Positions 1-19,156 of a stretch of DNA of 23,295 nt are shown here, piece by piece. The notes below the pieces were generated by a model. That model was not told the origin of the DNA. It was given only the letters and a program-made list of their open reading frames with translations, and made no database searches. This DNA is from a virus. A program made the translations under genes and the position numbers. The DNA is taken from positions 1 to 23,295 of IMG/VR virus record IMGVR_UViG_3300031707_000182; one strand, written 5' to 3'. Position 1 is the stretch's first letter, and each line of letters starts with the position of its first letter.

Positions 1-1461
1 TTGCTCATTTGTAATAAGACATTATCTTATCTACAAATCCCATTGGAATTGAAACCTGAATTCTATCAACGACCAGCAAAACTCAGAATTTTCCCTGAGA
101 ATAAACTTAAGATATCCTTTGAGTGGCATCGTGGTGATGAACAACTTGAAGGATGGCACTACGACGAAAAGAAATCTCTTTGGGAAAGGATCGTGACTTG
201 TGAAGAAGTTGATGAATACAACTTTGACGTGGATCATATCATTCGGCACCTTGTTTCTAATGAACGTGATGCTGGTTGGTTCATCCTGTCTCGCAGTGGA
301 TGGACATTTGAAAATCGTCAACACGTCGTTGATGTCCTCACATCAAACGGCCTCAAACGTGGAGCTATTTCTAAGATACTAGGAAGTTCTATTCTTGATA
401 ATTGGGAACTTGTCAACATTCCATTCCAAGAAGAATACCCAGGTAATAGACAATGGAATAAGCATCCAGCTAGTTTAGCCTTCGAGCCATTGCAAGGTCA
501 GCATCCCACATGGGATCTAGTTTATAGCCACTGCGGCAAGAATCTAAATGACGCTGTTCGTGCAGCAGAATGGTGCAAACAATATGGGATTCTCAGTGGG
601 GCAGATTACCTACTTACCTGGACCGCAAGTCTTTTCCAATTTCCACTTGAACCTCTACCCTATCTGTTTTTCTACGGTCCTCAGAATTCTGGAAAATCAA
701 CATTCCATGAGTCACTATCCTTGTTATTTCGCAACGGGTACGCAAGAGCCGATGTTGCTCTTACAAGCAAAGGAAGTTTCAACGGTGAACTTGAAGGAGC
801 AGTCTTGTGCGTAGTCGAAGAAGTGAATCTCCAGAAGTCAAAGGAGTCATATGAAAAAATCAAAGATTGGGTTACTGCTTCTACGATCTCAATCCACCCT
901 AAAGGTAGAACACCATATCTGTCCCAGAATACTACCCATTGGATCCAATGTGCAAACAATCCTGGTTTCTGCCCCATTTTTCCTGGAGATAGCCGTATTG
1001 TGGTTACCTCTATTTCACCTATTGGTGGAGTTATACCTAAGAAGTTATTTATTGAGCGACTTACTGAAGAAGCCAGATATTTTCTGTACACATTACTAAA
1101 CTTAAAAATCTCTCTACCTATCGACCGTCTACGCATCCCTGTTCTGAGTACTCAACAGAAAGAAGTCCAACAAGAAATCAATGCTAGTATACTAGATGTA
1201 TTCATTGCTGAGAATTGTTACAGAATAGACGGACATGCTATTCCGTTTGCTGAGTTTTATGAGAAGTTCATGCAGATTGTTCCGATGCACGAACGAGGTT
1301 ACTGGTCACAAAGGAGGGTCGCCTTGTGTATCCCTGAGGACATTCCGAGAGGTAAGACAGGACAGTTTAATGTTACCTGTTTAGGCAACATGACATGGGA
1401 GCAGAACGCTACCCCACGAGTCAAACTTGCTCGTATCGAAGGGAGACTTACTCATGCCTAA
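1..1461 (+). CDS. Superfamily 3 replicative DNA helicase (D5/P4-type), 5' end cut by window
   Basis: Likely ATP-dependent helicase that unwinds phage DNA at the replication fork. The Walker A motif GPQNSGKST lies at about residues 226-234, an acidic Walker B (VVEE) at 271-274, a sensor/motif C asparagine in QCANNPGF near 319-320, and a candidate arginine finger in GDSR near 332. This order and spacing is that of SF3 helicases of the D5/P4 primase-helicase group. About 220 residues precede the ATPase, the last part resembling the D5 N-terminal helical region. The frame is open from the first base and the TTG there has no visible upstream context, so the true start, and possibly a primase domain, probably lies to the left. 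The stop overlaps the next gene's ATG by 8 nt, which suggests translational coupling. The helicase call is firm; the exact subfamily is inferred. Confidence 0.85.
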   Translation: MLICNKTLSYLQIPLELKPEFYQRPAKLRIFPENKLKISFEWHRGDEQLEGWHYDEKKSLWERIVTCEEVDEYNFDVDHIIRHLVSNERDAGWFILSRSGWTFENRQHVVDVLTSNGLKRGAISKILGSSILDNWELVNIPFQEEYPGNRQWNKHPASLAFEPLQGQHPTWDLVYSHCGKNLNDAVRAAEWCKQYGILSGADYLLTWTASLFQFPLEPLPYLFFYGPQNSGKSTFHESLSLLFRNGYARADVALTSKGSFNGELEGAVLCVVEEVNLQKSKESYEKIKDWVTASTISIHPKGRTPYLSQNTTHWIQCANNPGFCPIFPGDSRIVVTSISPIGGVIPKKLFIERLTEEARYFLYTLLNLKISLPIDRLRIPVLSTQQKEVQQEINASILDVFIAENCYRIDGHAIPFAEFYEKFMQIVPMHERGYWSQRRVALCIPEDIPRGKTGQFNVTCLGNMTWEQNATPRVKLARIEGRLTHA

Positions 1462-2275
1462 TACATATGTTTTATACAATAAAACTCATGATAGCTGTTG
1501 TGCTGCTTGGATTGCCAAGGTTTCCCGCGGTGCAGGTTCTCAACGTTTCTTTACTCAAGTTTTCAATGAAGAAAATTATGCTAGTTTTCAGATCTGCGAA
1601 GATGATACAATCTTCTTTATGGACTGTTTATTTAATCCAGATATAATGAGACCTATCTATTGTAAGAACGCTATTGCTCTCATCGGTTGTAATCCAGCAC
1701 TTGAGGAACAGGCAATGGAACTCAAGCGTAAGAAACTAGCACAAGTTGAATGGGATAGCAGATCATCAACTTGTATTCAAGCATGGAAATTCTTCAAAGG
1801 AAGTGGGTCTGAACCACTTTTCTTTGTGAAGTATATAGATGAACTCTTAAGAGGGGTAAGGAGTATGCCCTTCATCCGGGACATGAAAGTTGTTCTTCAA
1901 AGTTATCCTCCTGAATCCAAGACATACTCCACTCTTTTTAACATGAAACTCACAGACCTTCTACAAGAGATTGTTCCATTAAGACGATTACTTGATAATC
2001 TAGCTATTGAAGCAGCGAGTACCTGTACCTTTAACTATCAAAATTACCCAATAATTGTGTGTAGTTCACCGTTTCTTCTTGAAGAAATACTTGAAACTTT
2101 GATAATCCAGTATCCTACGGCCATTGGAATCCAACCAAGAAAGAATACAGCCATTGTTCATATTAAATCAAACAAAGAAATTGTGGATTATAAAGAATAT
2201 AATCCAGTAGGAACGAAGAATTATGTGCGATTCTCAGTAGACAAGGAAGCTCTTGAGGAGATTACAAAACCATGA
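1454..2275 (+). CDS. DHH-phosphoesterase-like protein with lost catalytic triad
   Basis: About 273 residues from the ATG at 1454, which has GGGAG eight bases upstream; the in-frame TTG at 1427 is a weaker choice. The layout follows DHH/DHHA1 phosphoesterases (oligoribonuclease/RecJ superfamily): an N-terminal strand then THDSCCAAW (D13) where active members have a D-G-x-x-A-A motif, a hydrophobic strand ending in D57 (FFMDCLF), then LIGCN at 76-80 where DHH is expected, a STCIQAW helix at 105-111, KYIDELLR at 126-133, and a C-terminal DHHA1-like half. Two aspartates are kept but the DHH triad reads GCN, so metal binding and nuclease activity are probably lost. It overlaps the helicase gene, so a role as a non-catalytic replication partner is an inference. 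Family placement is by eye only and is moderately sure. Confidence 0.55.
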   Translation: MPNTYVLYNKTHDSCCAAWIAKVSRGAGSQRFFTQVFNEENYASFQICEDDTIFFMDCLFNPDIMRPIYCKNAIALIGCNPALEEQAMELKRKKLAQVEWDSRSSTCIQAWKFFKGSGSEPLFFVKYIDELLRGVRSMPFIRDMKVVLQSYPPESKTYSTLFNMKLTDLLQEIVPLRRLLDNLAIEAASTCTFNYQNYPIIVCSSPFLLEEILETLIIQYPTAIGIQPRKNTAIVHIKSNKEIVDYKEYNPVGTKNYVRFSVDKEALEEITKP

Positions 2276-2319
2276 TCCTGACTGACGAAGGTGGAATCTA
2301 CCCTACCCCGGAGCCATGA
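2272..2319 (+). CDS. 15-codon mini-ORF bridging two genes
   Basis: ATG at 2272 overlaps the TGA of the DHH-like gene (ATGA), and its own TGA at 2317-2319 overlaps the ATG of the next gene at 2316 (again ATGA). A GAGGAG stretch at 2255-2260 is placed as its ribosome binding site, about 11 nt away. The peptide would be MILTDEGGIYPTPEP. The gene that follows has only a poor site of its own (GGAG ending two or three bases before its ATG), so ribosomes terminating here could re-initiate there. Whether the peptide matters in itself is unknown; it may be only a translational bridge, or chance. Confidence 0.3.
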   Translation: MILTDEGGIYPTPEP

Positions 2320-2840
2320 ACGTGAAATGGACCGTGTTGCTCGTACTGCTGGCGTCCCTCTGCTACGGAATGACGCTGACGCCGATCGCGCCGACTGTTC
2401 TGCTTCCCTACGACGCGGCGCAGTTGTGGATCGATGATGATAACAACGCTACTACAGGCTACGGAGCCGGGTACGGTCGGATGTGGCGATGGTGCGGAGC
2501 CGAGCCGCAGCACTTCCAGTGGTGCATAATGGGTCCGCAATCCACTGGCGGATGGGGCGACTGGATCGGGCTTGCCGCAGCGACCAGCCTTGGTACGACG
2601 ACCCCGATCATCCCATTCCCGCTCGGTGGTTCAACGCGGTGGGCTTTCGAAACGTACACCACAGGCAAGCTGGTAGAGACGAAAACCGGCACGAAGAGCG
2701 GCACAGCCTTCTCGGTGGTGGACAACTCCGCGATGCTGTGGTGCATGAGCGGGCCGGGCGTGCCGTACCCAGTGGGCTGCGGTGTGTTCGACGTGGACAC
2801 TGACGGAGATGTAGACTTAAAAGACTGGAGCAAGCGATGA
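2316..2840 (+). CDS. Secreted protein with C-terminal dockerin-like calcium loop
   Basis: A 174-residue protein of unknown role. Residues 1-18 form a signal peptide (K4, then a Leu/Val-rich core), so export is expected. Residues about 36-48 (LWIDDDNNATTGY) resemble the loop seen in some bacterial carbohydrate-binding or DOMON-like modules, a weak resemblance. The last 19 residues hold DVDTDGDVDLKDW (159-171), a single EF-hand-like calcium loop as in one half of a type I dockerin; a full dockerin has two. Four cysteines after the signal region could form disulfides. The gene is clearly richer in G+C than both neighbours and uses G/C-ending codons, a sign of recent acquisition. It is the last plus-strand gene before the convergent hairpin. 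It could be a cargo ('moron') gene acting at the cell surface; no function is assigned. Confidence 0.6.
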   Translation: MNVKWTVLLVLLASLCYGMTLTPIAPTVLLPYDAAQLWIDDDNNATTGYGAGYGRMWRWCGAEPQHFQWCIMGPQSTGGWGDWIGLAAATSLGTTTPIIPFPLGGSTRWAFETYTTGKLVETKTGTKSGTAFSVVDNSAMLWCMSGPGVPYPVGCGVFDVDTDGDVDLKDWSKR

Positions 2841-7902: not shown

Positions 7903-8475
7903 CTAACTAATTTGAGTCCCACCGTAACGATTATTCATCCAGTTATATAACCATTGATTTCTCATCGACATTGAAGGTGGAACAATACCCTGGTTCAAGT
8001 CAATAGCATTTCCCTCACTAAAGATACCTGGAGTATTTTCAAGAGAAGAATCTAAAAGCATATTCGGGTTCTCAACAGCATTTCCCTCACTAAAGATACC
8101 TGGAGTATTTTCAAGAGAAGAATCTAAAAGCATATTCGGGTTCTCAACAGCTTTGTTCCCCATCCCCTTAGCAACTGCACTCTCCATCTCCCCACCTTCT
8201 AGGACATTCCCCACCATCGTCCCCGGCCAACTAGCAATCCCACCAGCAATACTATCTTTATCAGCACCAAGAATATCACCAGCAAGACCAAAGGCCATAG
8301 CTCGACGCTGATTTGCTAACTCGCCCTTGCCGAGATTCTTTTTAACTCTACGGTCTGACATTGCATTTGAAAGTTGCATAAGCAGTTGCTGGCGTGCAGA
8401 CTCATCGCCCATCACGTCACGCATTGACTGCATATACATTCCTGGAATATTTCTCTGTGCTAGGAATGGTATCAT
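7903..8475 (-). CDS. Small structural-region protein with a 24-residue tandem duplication
   Basis: A 190-residue protein of unknown function between two helical internal-type proteins. Residues about 110-157 consist of two identical 24-residue copies (AVENPNMLLDSSLENTPGIF plus SEGN). The N-terminal third (SARQQLLMQLSNAMSDRRVKKNL) has the look of a short helical module; RRVK near residue 42 recalls the 'SDRRVKKNI' strand of phage intramolecular chaperone (peptidase S74) domains, but the rest of that domain is absent, so I do not assign it. The start overlaps the upstream stop (ATGA, 8472-8475) with GGGGAG three bases before the ATG, which is a short spacing. It is likely a virion protein by context. 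Confidence 0.5.
   Translation of the reverse strand: MIPFLAQRNIPGMYMQSMRDVMGDESARQQLLMQLSNAMSDRRVKKNLGKGELANQRRAMAFGLAGDILGADKDSIAGGIASWPGTMVGNVLEGGEMESAVAKGMGNKAVENPNMLLDSSLENTPGIFSEGNAVENPNMLLDSSLENTPGIFSEGNAIDLNQGIVPPSMSMRNQWLYNWMNNRYGGTQIS
8005..8148 (-). repeat. Perfect 72-bp tandem duplication in a coding region
   Basis: Positions 8005-8076 and 8077-8148 are identical, with a further 3 nt of match (AGC) after the second copy. The unit is 24 codons and keeps the reading frame. The absence of any silent difference points to a very recent event, or to an assembly artefact. Confidence 0.95.

Positions 8476-9352: not shown

Positions 9353-9356
<4 letters not shown>
8472..9356 (-). CDS. Internal virion-type helical protein
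   Basis: A 294-residue protein. The N-terminus is low in hydrophobic residues and rich in Arg/Tyr/Asn/Gly; the middle (about 90-250) is helical with Gln/Asn/Ala, including LGDRGLGGGYQAAVNSDLM, a type of segment seen in minor virion proteins of short-tailed phages. The C-terminus (about 262-294) is amphipathic and hydrophobic (LPDFLGNLLNDLWPMLLNQ). AAAGGAG lies seven bases before the ATG, and the start overlaps the fibre gene's stop (ATGA). No enzyme motif. Probably one of the internal or ejection proteins with its two downstream neighbours; inferred from context. Confidence 0.5.
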
Positions 9357-10750
<1,394 letters not shown>

Positions 10751-10767
<17 letters not shown>

Positions 10768-12682
10768 CTGACTCAATTGAGAAACTACGAACTTGTGTTG
10801 CGGAACTTGTCAGAGTTCCGGTAAACTTGAAACTTATTCTTTTACTACGTTTCTTTAAACGTACACGATCAGAGTTTCCAAAAGTTATTGAACTACCCAT
10901 ACCAATTTCATCTGTTTTGCACTCAACAGCGAGAGTACCAGACGTACTAAATGAAACTCTTAATTCACGCCAATATTTTTTAAGAGCAGAATTACCACCA
11001 ACATAATCTTTAGTTGTAAAATTCCAGACTATAGATGTTTCATTCTGGAAAGAAGCAGCCGGTAAGACTGTATCATAGTATTGACAAACTACAGAACCCA
11101 GAAGAAAAACAGGAGAACGTTCGAAAGTAGACATACCACTAACAGGAACACCGTCAATTCCAGCCTGAAAGGATGAGTATAAAGTCCATTTAGTCCATGC
11201 TCCAGTCTCTCCGTAGTGGTAACAAAGAACAGTTGTCTTAGATTGGAAAGTAACTAGGATTTGTTGATGTGCTTCGTTATGGAAAACCTTAATTCCAAAC
11301 AAACTTCCACCAGTTACTGGTCCAGTATAACCATAGATACTAGTTAATTGCCCACCAAGACGCTTATAATTCATAAGATCATAAATAATTAATTCGCGTC
11401 GATCACAAAAGTAAATAGCACTACCTTGTATACAGACAATGTTAGAATAACATTGGACTTCAGGATGTTGGCAGAATATCTCATAATTGCTAGAAGCTAT
11501 GTCATCACCGATAGTGCCAACAAGAGTATAGATTCCCTCAGTTGTAAAGATAAAAAGGGTGCCTTGAACTTCGATCATATCACTAATTTGACCAGTCCCC
11601 TTACAGATAGGAATTGGTCCATTGATAGGAATAGAAATAGCTTCTGGATCATCAAATTTACTAAAGTAAATATCCCCATTTTTAGCATAAACCATCCGAC
11701 CACGATAAGAAGTTATGGCCGACAGATATGTAGGAATACCAACAACAGCAGAAGTATCATACCATTCAGCCCCAATAGGAACAACTAATTCATCAAAAAT
11801 TTCCCAAGTATTATTAGTATCATTCCAAACTACAGTACCATCCTCAGCAGAAGCTCTACCAACTAACCAATAGAAAGACCCATCTATATTCAAGTCTTTT
11901 CTATAAACAAGAAGATCATCATAATAAGTCCCAATATGTTTAGGTGGACTGTCAGTTGGATGATCCGCTACTGGAGGTTTGATATAGATGCGTGTCTGAT
12001 ATGTAGTAGTAACACCATCAGCACCAGGAACACCATGTATAAATTTACACGGTTTAGAATAACGAGTAATACTGGAAGTCGTTTTAGCATAAACAATTAT
12101 ATACTCATAATCACCTTTTGATAAACCTGGAGCACTCACAGGATTGGCAACAAAATGTGTGTATGTATCAACTGAGGGCATGTAAGCATTAAACTTCCAA
12201 GCAGAAGGGTCAAGTGTAGTAATAGAGGGTTCAATTACTTCTGTTAAGGTTCCAGGTACACCGTTAGTTCCGATCAATGTTTTATAAGCTTTTGTTCCAA
12301 GGTTAATATAAACATAACTTCCATACTCGAAAAACTGGGGAATAGAACCAGTTGTCCAAGTTGGACTTCCAGCAATCATCGCACAAGTTGTGAATTGTTG
12401 AGTTGAAAGGGCATAAATTAGATAATATATCTCCTGACCATCAGGATCATCATAAACAGCAATTATAACTTCGTAAGAGGAAGCTCTGAATTTGTGTAAA
12501 CCAGTAATATAGCCAAGAGCATTAAAAGTAGTGTTATCTGTTAATTTACGAAAGAACCGACGTGGACTAATCTTCCCGTTCATTATAATTGTATTATTAC
12601 AATCAACAATACGACCTGGTTCCAAATCCTCAGGATCTTTGTAACGATCAAGTCCAAAGAAAGTGTCAACAGTTTCTCTCAT
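10751..12682 (-). CDS. Tail nozzle / stabilisation-type protein (beta-propeller-like)
   Basis: A 643-residue, beta-rich protein. The N-terminal segment DPEDLEPGRIVDCNNTIIMN with GKISPRR (residues 16-42) and the central block YRGRMVYAKNGDIYFSKFDD and following GTLFIFTTEGIYTLVG (about 326-389) are typical of nozzle or tail-stabilisation proteins of short-tailed phages (the T7 gp12 / P22 gp10 type role). Such proteins assemble below the adaptor to form the tail tube exit. It lies directly downstream of the adaptor gene with a 1-nt TAATG overlap and GGAG eight bases before the ATG. The family assignment rests on sequence style and gene order. Confidence 0.7.
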
Positions 12683-18493: not shown

Positions 18494-18507
18494 ATGGTTA
18501 TCCTCCC
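18491..18507 (-). promoter_or_regulatory. Ribosome binding site serving two overlapping starts (ATGTG)
   Basis: GGGAGG (18502-18507) is six bases from ATG 18495 and eight from GTG 18493. The GTG opens the 101-residue membrane protein; the ATG opens a 28-codon frame with an equally hydrophobic peptide (MWNIIDFLVTLSALFAWLLE...) ending at 18409. Confidence 0.5.
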
Positions 18508-18836
18508 TCAAGATGGTAATGGATTATCATTGTCCCGTATGTGCTAGTACCTTGAAAATAAACACCAAGACCAACACCAATTTTAAAATTTAAATCCTTA
18601 AACTGTGAAGATTTAGCAGCGATTGTACTTATATTAAATACGCTTGTCATAGCAACATCATTATTACTAGAAGAAATAATCAGAGAACTAGCAGCAGTCG
18701 CAGGAGCTGTAAAACAAAGAGAATCAATAACAACACGACGTTTAGTTGTTACTACCGCAGCAGTGACAACTGCCTCCACATCCGCCATTGTTGAAGACCA
18801 AACTTTAGTATACTGTTGTGTTTGAAACTCTCTCAT
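18498..18836 (-). CDS. Small beta-rich virion-type protein, paralogue B
   Basis: 112 residues, no membrane segment and no enzyme motif, mostly beta strands with Ser/Thr/Val. It is paralogous to the neighbour upstream: both begin MRE(F/Y)QTQQ and both end in an I-I-x-Y-H-(L/I)-E-G motif, while the middles differ. AAGGAG seven bases before the ATG; start shares one base with the upstream stop (TAATG). A decoration, fibre or spike role would suit the composition, but there is no direct evidence. Confidence 0.55.
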   Translation of the reverse strand: MREFQTQQYTKVWSSTMADVEAVVTAAVVTTKRRVVIDSLCFTAPATAASSLIISSSNNDVAMTSVFNISTIAAKSSQFKDLNFKIGVGLGVYFQGTSTYGTMIIHYHLEGG

Positions 18837-19156
18837 TACTTGGCTCCTTCAATATGGTAATTGATGATCAACTCGTGGAGAGTCCCACTCGTTACACAAC
18901 GAAACCCAAGTTGTGTATTAACTGGCCATTTGTAATCAAAGTCAAAGACAACAGGAGGACTAACAGAATTAAAAATCATAACTGTAACACCGTCGGCTGT
19001 TTCTAAATAAAGAGCACCATCAGTAGTATTGTTACCAGAGTGGACAAGTTTCTCAATAACAAAACACTTACCAAGACCTGGAGTAGTTTTTAAAACTGTA
19101 AAAGCAGTAGGTGGGATCTGAGACAATATAATTTGTTGAGTTTGGTATTCTCTCAT
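18836..19156 (-). CDS. Small beta-rich virion-type protein, paralogue A
   Basis: 106 residues with the same ends as the gene downstream (MREYQTQQ at the start; IINYHIEGAK at the end) and a beta-rich middle (GALYLETADGVTVMIFNSVS). The pair is best explained by gene duplication. Start overlaps the upstream stop (ATGA, 19153-19156), with GGAG ten bases upstream. Function unknown; probably a virion surface protein by analogy of composition only. Confidence 0.55.
   Translation of the reverse strand: MREYQTQQIILSQIPPTAFTVLKTTPGLGKCFVIEKLVHSGNNTTDGALYLETADGVTVMIFNSVSPPVVFDFDYKWPVNTQLGFRCVTSGTLHELIINYHIEGAK

Follow-up and report, generated by a model that had tools for sequence, protein, structure and literature searches.

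The gene of a degenerate NrnB-like DHH/DHHA1 protein, a predicted pseudoenzyme, overlaps a primase-helicase gene in a phage record

Closest described systems and the locus

The NrnB-like (COG2404) subfamily, with Bacillus subtilis NrnB and phage proteins, e.g., from Vibrio phage H2 and Polaromonas phage Tiera, among its members, is characterized by 3' exoribonuclease activity on short RNA. Individual residues of the DHH motif have roles as metal ligands. In a published survey of NrnB, a GGGH motif in the DHHA1 domain is a requirement, and a long C-terminal extension is described for NrnB-A, as given in parts of that survey (PMC12709177). The replication factors of archaea and eukaryotes include inactivated DHH proteins, according to parts of a 2012 survey of the RecJ-like family (PMC3307487). 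The RecJ clade of that survey comprises bacterial RecJ (COG0608), CDC45 and archaeal homologues, COG2404 being listed beside other COGs, and in those same parts its authors noted no link to viruses. Finally, Polaromonas phage Tiera (L004, 2646-4912) has an NrnB-like DHH gene whose start shares 4 nt with the end of a replication ATPase gene.

The window analyzed here, a virus record of 23,295 bases, encodes a DHH-like protein (P0001) directly behind a primase-helicase gene (Table 1). P0001 is collinear with NrnB-like proteins over its full length and has the same two domains. Its length is similar too, and it lacks the long C-terminal extension that NrnB-A has according to parts of the NrnB survey (PMC12709177). 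It differs from them by the replacement of DHH by GCN and of GGGGH by NPVGT, and by the loss of the Asp of DRDLW and the Arg of SLRS. With CDC45 and the inactivated archaeal RecJ homologues it shares an inactivated DHH domain, the superfamily fold and a tie to a replicative helicase. Yet those proteins belong to the RecJ clade, as stated in part of the 2012 survey (PMC3307487), whereas P0001 escapes the RecJ profile; its helicase is SF3-type, while that of CDC45 is MCM, and its pairing is not conserved. The Tiera locus resembles the present one in its overlap but has an intact DHH protein, and its ATPase is a DUF3987 protein, a putative primase of another family than the helicase next to P0001. 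Such coupling can thus arise with an intact enzyme too. What is new here, judged from sequence, is that a phage replication operon, in a single record, encodes an NrnB-like DHH protein that is predicted to be inactivated. A literature search, mainly of freely accessible papers, found none that describes a phage helicase with a degenerate NrnB-like protein next to it.

The reading frame called in the original prediction is present with an ATG start, and its claimed overlap with the helicase stop is borne out: the helicase ORF ends with a TAA at 1459-1461 and includes the ATG at 1454. A ribosome-binding-like GGGAG is found about 8 nt 5' of this ATG. The in-frame codon score of P0001 is 0.165 (0.146 for the helicase), and the other five frames all score negative. 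Since the 273-codon frame is open and its codon use is like that of the phage's other genes, a sequencing error or frameshift pseudogene is rejected. Directly downstream, an ORF at 2316-2840 (+) is of foreign composition, with a third-position GC of 0.75 against 0.22-0.43 in the genes of this phage; it has a signal-peptide-like N-terminus and a DVDTDGDVDLKDW stretch, and a Pfam search with it gave no match.

Table 1. Coordinates of the features of the P0001 locus within the window.
Feature	Position	Strand	Details and basis
Primase-helicase C-terminal part, DUF5906/SF3-type ATPase	1..1461	+	Pfam, PHROG; 5' part cut by window start
Degenerate NrnB-like DHH/DHHA1 protein P0001, predicted pseudoenzyme	1454..2275	+	273 aa; profiles, model, blastp
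Overlap of P0001 start and helicase stop, 8 nt	1454..1461	+	Sequence
Codons of GCN (78-80), site of the lost DHH	1685..1693	+	Ungapped alignment LIGCNPALEE / VIDHHKTAEK
Codons of NPVGT (250-254), site of the lost DHHA1 GGGGH	2201..2215	+	KEYNPVGTKNYVRFSV / AKFGGGGHKHAAGFSI

Subfamily and predicted fold of P0001

P0001 has no match in Pfam, PHROGs or NCBIfam, even at E-values up to 1 or 10, and its comparison with PDB sequences yields noise only. With tblastn, two chance matches at E 7 were obtained in phage records and none in plasmid records, and a relative was likewise absent from viral scans that used the terminase, the 1052-aa protein or P0001 itself. As the standard family libraries are silent, profiles of phage relatives were needed. 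An NrnB-like profile was built from 15 phage DHH proteins, two of which are ORFs read from unannotated records. P0001 scores 25.5 bits against this profile, compared to 5.6 for the best of 5000 shuffles, and hhalign aligns the two collinearly from end to end with a probability of 96-98%. The DHH/DHHA1 relationship foreseen in the original prediction extends over the full length of the protein. Subfamilies were compared using profiles built from the same number of sequences, 13 each for NrnB-like, NrnA and RecJ. Two NrnB-like profiles give 27.2 and 31.9 bits (best shuffles 6-7.4), while the NrnA profile gives -2.7 bits, below the best shuffle, and P0001 goes unreported with the RecJ profile (hhalign probability 0.34%). 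A blastp alignment with an intact viral DHH protein reaches 50 bits at 25% identity over 186 aa. Because the NrnB-like profiles score and those of RecJ and NrnA do not beat the shuffles, P0001 is assigned to the NrnB-like/COG2404 branch, a group common in phages and, by these sequence comparisons, the sole subfamily with a match. A RecJ/CDC45 lineage is rejected by the profile comparison; the closer sequence relation to RecJ that would mark this clade is not seen.

AlphaFold2, supplied with an alignment of 71 rows (A4), yields a model of P0001 with a mean pLDDT of 88.5 and a pTM of 0.78, compared to a pLDDT of 39 for the single-sequence model. This alignment comprises P0001, L027 (the DHH protein of a helicase-family locus described below) and 69 of the best 80 of 466 viral DHH relatives; the 11 omitted were chosen by eye and are mostly near-copies or cut ones. 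The protein is thus predicted to adopt a two-domain DHH plus DHHA1 fold, as had been proposed. Foldseek relates the model to Helicobacter 6mtz, PAP phosphatase, NrnA, RecJ and RecJ-Cdc45 at E-values from 1e-9 to 1e-4 and, among viral proteins, to DHH proteins of phage PaBG and others at E-values down to 1.5e-15. With VIA-align, Z-scores of 15.9 for the archaeal RecJ2 of M. jannaschii, 14.5 for RecJ-Cdc45 and 12.4-12.8 for human CDC45 are obtained, with 256-260 residues aligned in these comparisons, i.e., the whole length of P0001. Since Z is high for many superfamily members, the fold alone favors no CDC45 assignment. The sequence evidence is also the stronger leg compared to the model, as the latter is guided by the intact relatives in its alignment.

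Active-site loss and retention of the core

The proposed replacement of DHH by GCN at residues 78-80 is seen in a gap-free alignment with an intact protein (Table 1), and no intact DHH is present elsewhere in P0001. Asp13 and Asp57, the two aspartates claimed to remain, are both present, and Asp101 is also retained. Nonetheless, the extent of the degeneration had been understated. In addition to DHH, P0001 has lost the Asp of DRDLW, the His, Cys and Gly of motif I and the Arg of SLRS (now HIKS), and the GGGGH of DHHA1 has become NPVGT, again in an ungapped alignment. The loss of GGGGH was read directly from the sequences, because its columns fell short of the 95% limit used for the column count. 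Both the DHH motif typical of NrnB-like/COG2404 proteins and the GGGH required in parts of the published NrnB survey (PMC12709177) are thus replaced, by GCN and by NPVGT at 250-254, respectively.

Among columns that are at least 95% conserved in 70 intact relatives (from the best 80 of 466, plus L027), P0001 has changed 28 of 35 and kept seven, including Asp13 and Asp57 (A4). Invariant polar positions, with 69 intact rows as reference, are retained in 8 of 24 cases, a count that understates by one because motif I of P0001 falls in gaps while Asp13 is kept in A4. Each of 16 intact members (L027 and the 15 phage proteins) keeps 18-24 of the same positions; L017 is likewise gapped at motif I, its annotated protein starting late. 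The alignment of motif I in P0001 is itself ambiguous, with the position of the His taken by Tyr8 or Asn9 depending on one gap. The hydrophobic core behaves differently: P0001 keeps 54 of 66 core positions, compared to 48-54 for the most divergent intact proteins (L027, PaBG, FishSpeaker, NCTB). Hydrophobic residues make up 46% of P0001, and its identity to the family majority is 20%.

We consider it somewhat probable (roughly 0.55) that P0001 is a pseudoenzyme derived from a phage NrnB-like (COG2404) phosphoesterase, with the two-domain fold kept and both halves of the active site lost. Neither the two-metal site in the DHH domain nor the DHHA1 substrate clamp would have survived in a fold that itself persists. 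Judged by its residues, P0001 is very probably devoid of phosphodiesterase activity. A folded pseudoenzyme is preferred over a decaying gene because the loss is specific to the active site, 54 of 66 core positions are kept and codon use is phage-like; this combination, seen in one sequence, looks like that of a folded, inactive protein.

The strongest competing explanation is slow decay, in which a disused phage NrnB-like enzyme has been drifting and has acquired no stop or frameshift yet. P0001 is indeed a single case without a conserved partner or close homologue, and its catalytic positions are lost throughout. We nevertheless regard decay as unlikely, given the open frame of 273 codons and the ordinary codon use, and because long neutral decay should erode the core too instead of leaving it largely intact at 20% identity to the family majority. 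Alternatively, P0001 may still be an enzyme whose site was rebuilt around the remaining Asp13, Asp57 and Asp101 with new residues, e.g., His12 or Cys79. This appears improbable, as the whole DHH, the Asp of DRDLW, the His and Cys of motif I, GGGGH and the Arg were lost together, and the loss on the substrate side speaks against a conserved reaction with an unchanged substrate. That P0001 counters nucleotide-signalling defence as a nucleotide sponge or decoy is highly improbable. Family context speaks for it, as part of a review on jumbo phages raises the possibility that signalling by cyclic nucleotides is countered by phage DHH enzymes (PMC7824862), but the substrate-recognition motifs of DHHA1 are lost (GGGGH to NPVGT, SLRS to HIKS) and the known pocket with them, and the gene sits in a replication operon. 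The loss of these motifs points to a contact or scaffold role rather than to a sponge. Finally, that the resemblance to DHH proteins is due to chance, or that P0001 has another fold, is barely credible: against the silence of Pfam, PHROGs and NCBIfam and the noise among PDB sequences stand the shuffle controls, the full-length profile alignment, the pairwise blastp match and the predicted fold, which all agree.

Degeneration of this kind was encountered in P0001 only. The best 80 of 466 viral relatives all keep DHH and G[GNS]GH, a proportion that is biased because these relatives were picked by patterns requiring DHH or GGGH. A scan in which a degenerate motif was allowed (A7) gave six loci, all intact on reading, and no second degenerate homologue was found in the viral, phage and plasmid searches. 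At the least, phage DHH proteins would include predicted pseudoenzymes that standard family models miss.

The primase-helicase and the occurrence of the pairing

The upstream gene matches Pfam DUF5906 (1.4e-16) and a PHROG for DNA primase (3.3e-15) and has an intact Walker A motif, GPQNSGKS. It classifies as a DUF5906/P4-primase-type ATPase with Walker A, TIGR01613 scoring below its cut-off. The SF3 helicase of the original prediction hence stands as an SF3-type ATPase, with the qualification that the window holds the C-terminal part of a longer protein. Homologues are mostly about 850-970 aa (the one in L002, among the nearest relatives, has 865 aa and 45% identity), which indicates that the copy in the window lacks its 5' part. 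The N-terminal part of the protein is presumably a PrimPol/archaeo-eukaryotic primase.

The helicase family was collected from 40 loci (38 viral and two in bacterial MAGs), some of which are copy-like, e.g., L038-L040 and L046/L047. An adjacent DHH gene occurs in 0 of these 40, downstream sequence being present in 39 (L054 ends within the helicase). A full-sensitivity profile scan of 1933 flank ORFs detects one DHH protein, L027, at 112.6 bits, the next best score being 7.0. This protein is intact; its gene lies on the strand opposite to the helicase, about 2 kb upstream, and overlaps a neighbor that resembles ThyX by sequence. When 39 whole virus records (the 38 viral loci and the window) were searched, the intact-family alignment (A3) missed P0001 itself, and A4, which contains P0001, gave matches only in the window and in the record of L027. 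The gene following the helicase varies from phage to phage; for instance, L002 has two HTH genes (Cro/C1-type) there. In L042, a second, partial copy resembling the same SF3 helicase family lies 768-1454 bases after the end of the helicase.

Conversely, the helicase family occurs within about 3.5 kb of none of the 80 intact viral DHH loci (best 80 of 466). Neighbors of these loci were annotated in 72 cases upstream (PHROGs and Pfam) and 64 downstream (PHROGs only), the remaining loci having no neighbor of 80 aa inside the set limits. The neighbors are mixed; upstream, three DNA methylases, two terminases, two reverse transcriptases and one DnaB_C were recognized. A family-wide association between viral DHH proteins and helicases was not found among these 72 upstream and 64 downstream neighbors. 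As a separate observation, five of the 64 downstream neighbors are deoxyribonucleoside 5'-monophosphate phosphatases, which hints at nucleotide salvage around viral NrnB-like genes.

With 0 of 40 helicase loci having an adjacent DHH gene and 0 of the best 80 of 466 DHH loci having this helicase nearby, the pairing is a single case. The original prediction of a non-catalytic DHH protein coupled to an SF3 helicase holds for the degeneration, the predicted fold, the probable lack of catalysis and the 8-nt overlap. It is not supported where the protein was cast as a helicase partner by family, because P0001 belongs to NrnB-like/COG2404, a DHH group other than RecJ/CDC45, and because the pairing does not recur in the survey.

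A tentative proposal, possible though not favored, is that synthesis of P0001 is coordinated with that of the helicase and that P0001 serves the phage replication module as a non-catalytic accessory, by analogy to CDC45 and inactivated archaeal RecJ homologues. It would act through protein contacts or through weak single-strand binding in the domain cleft; its pI of 6.2 does not suggest strong nucleic-acid binding. A replication role is suggested by the gene's position. A CDC45-like role would likewise be an analogy, and the conserved association with a replicative helicase that characterizes CDC45 is seen in 0 of 40 loci. More doubtful is the further idea that an NrnB-like enzyme for RNA trimming became a subunit without catalytic function in the SF3 primase-helicase of a tailed phage. 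If true, a CDC45-like arrangement would have arisen twice independently, and this second origin would lie in a virus and start from another DHH clade. An inactivated DHH protein of another group overlapping a viral helicase gene would offer a test of whether this fold has been recruited repeatedly as a helicase partner.

Other parts of the window show repeats and duplications. In its second half, the protein encoded at 7903-8475 (-) repeats about 24 residues (AVENPNMLLDSSLENTPGIFSEGN) perfectly in tandem. Adjacent proteins at 9353-10195 and 10162-10776 (-) carry collagen-like GATGDK repeats, the first with a Pfam Collagen match. Finally, the tandem small proteins at 18498-18836 and 18836-19156 (-) share their start (MREFQTQQ and MREYQTQQ) and are, by this likeness, likely the product of a gene duplication.
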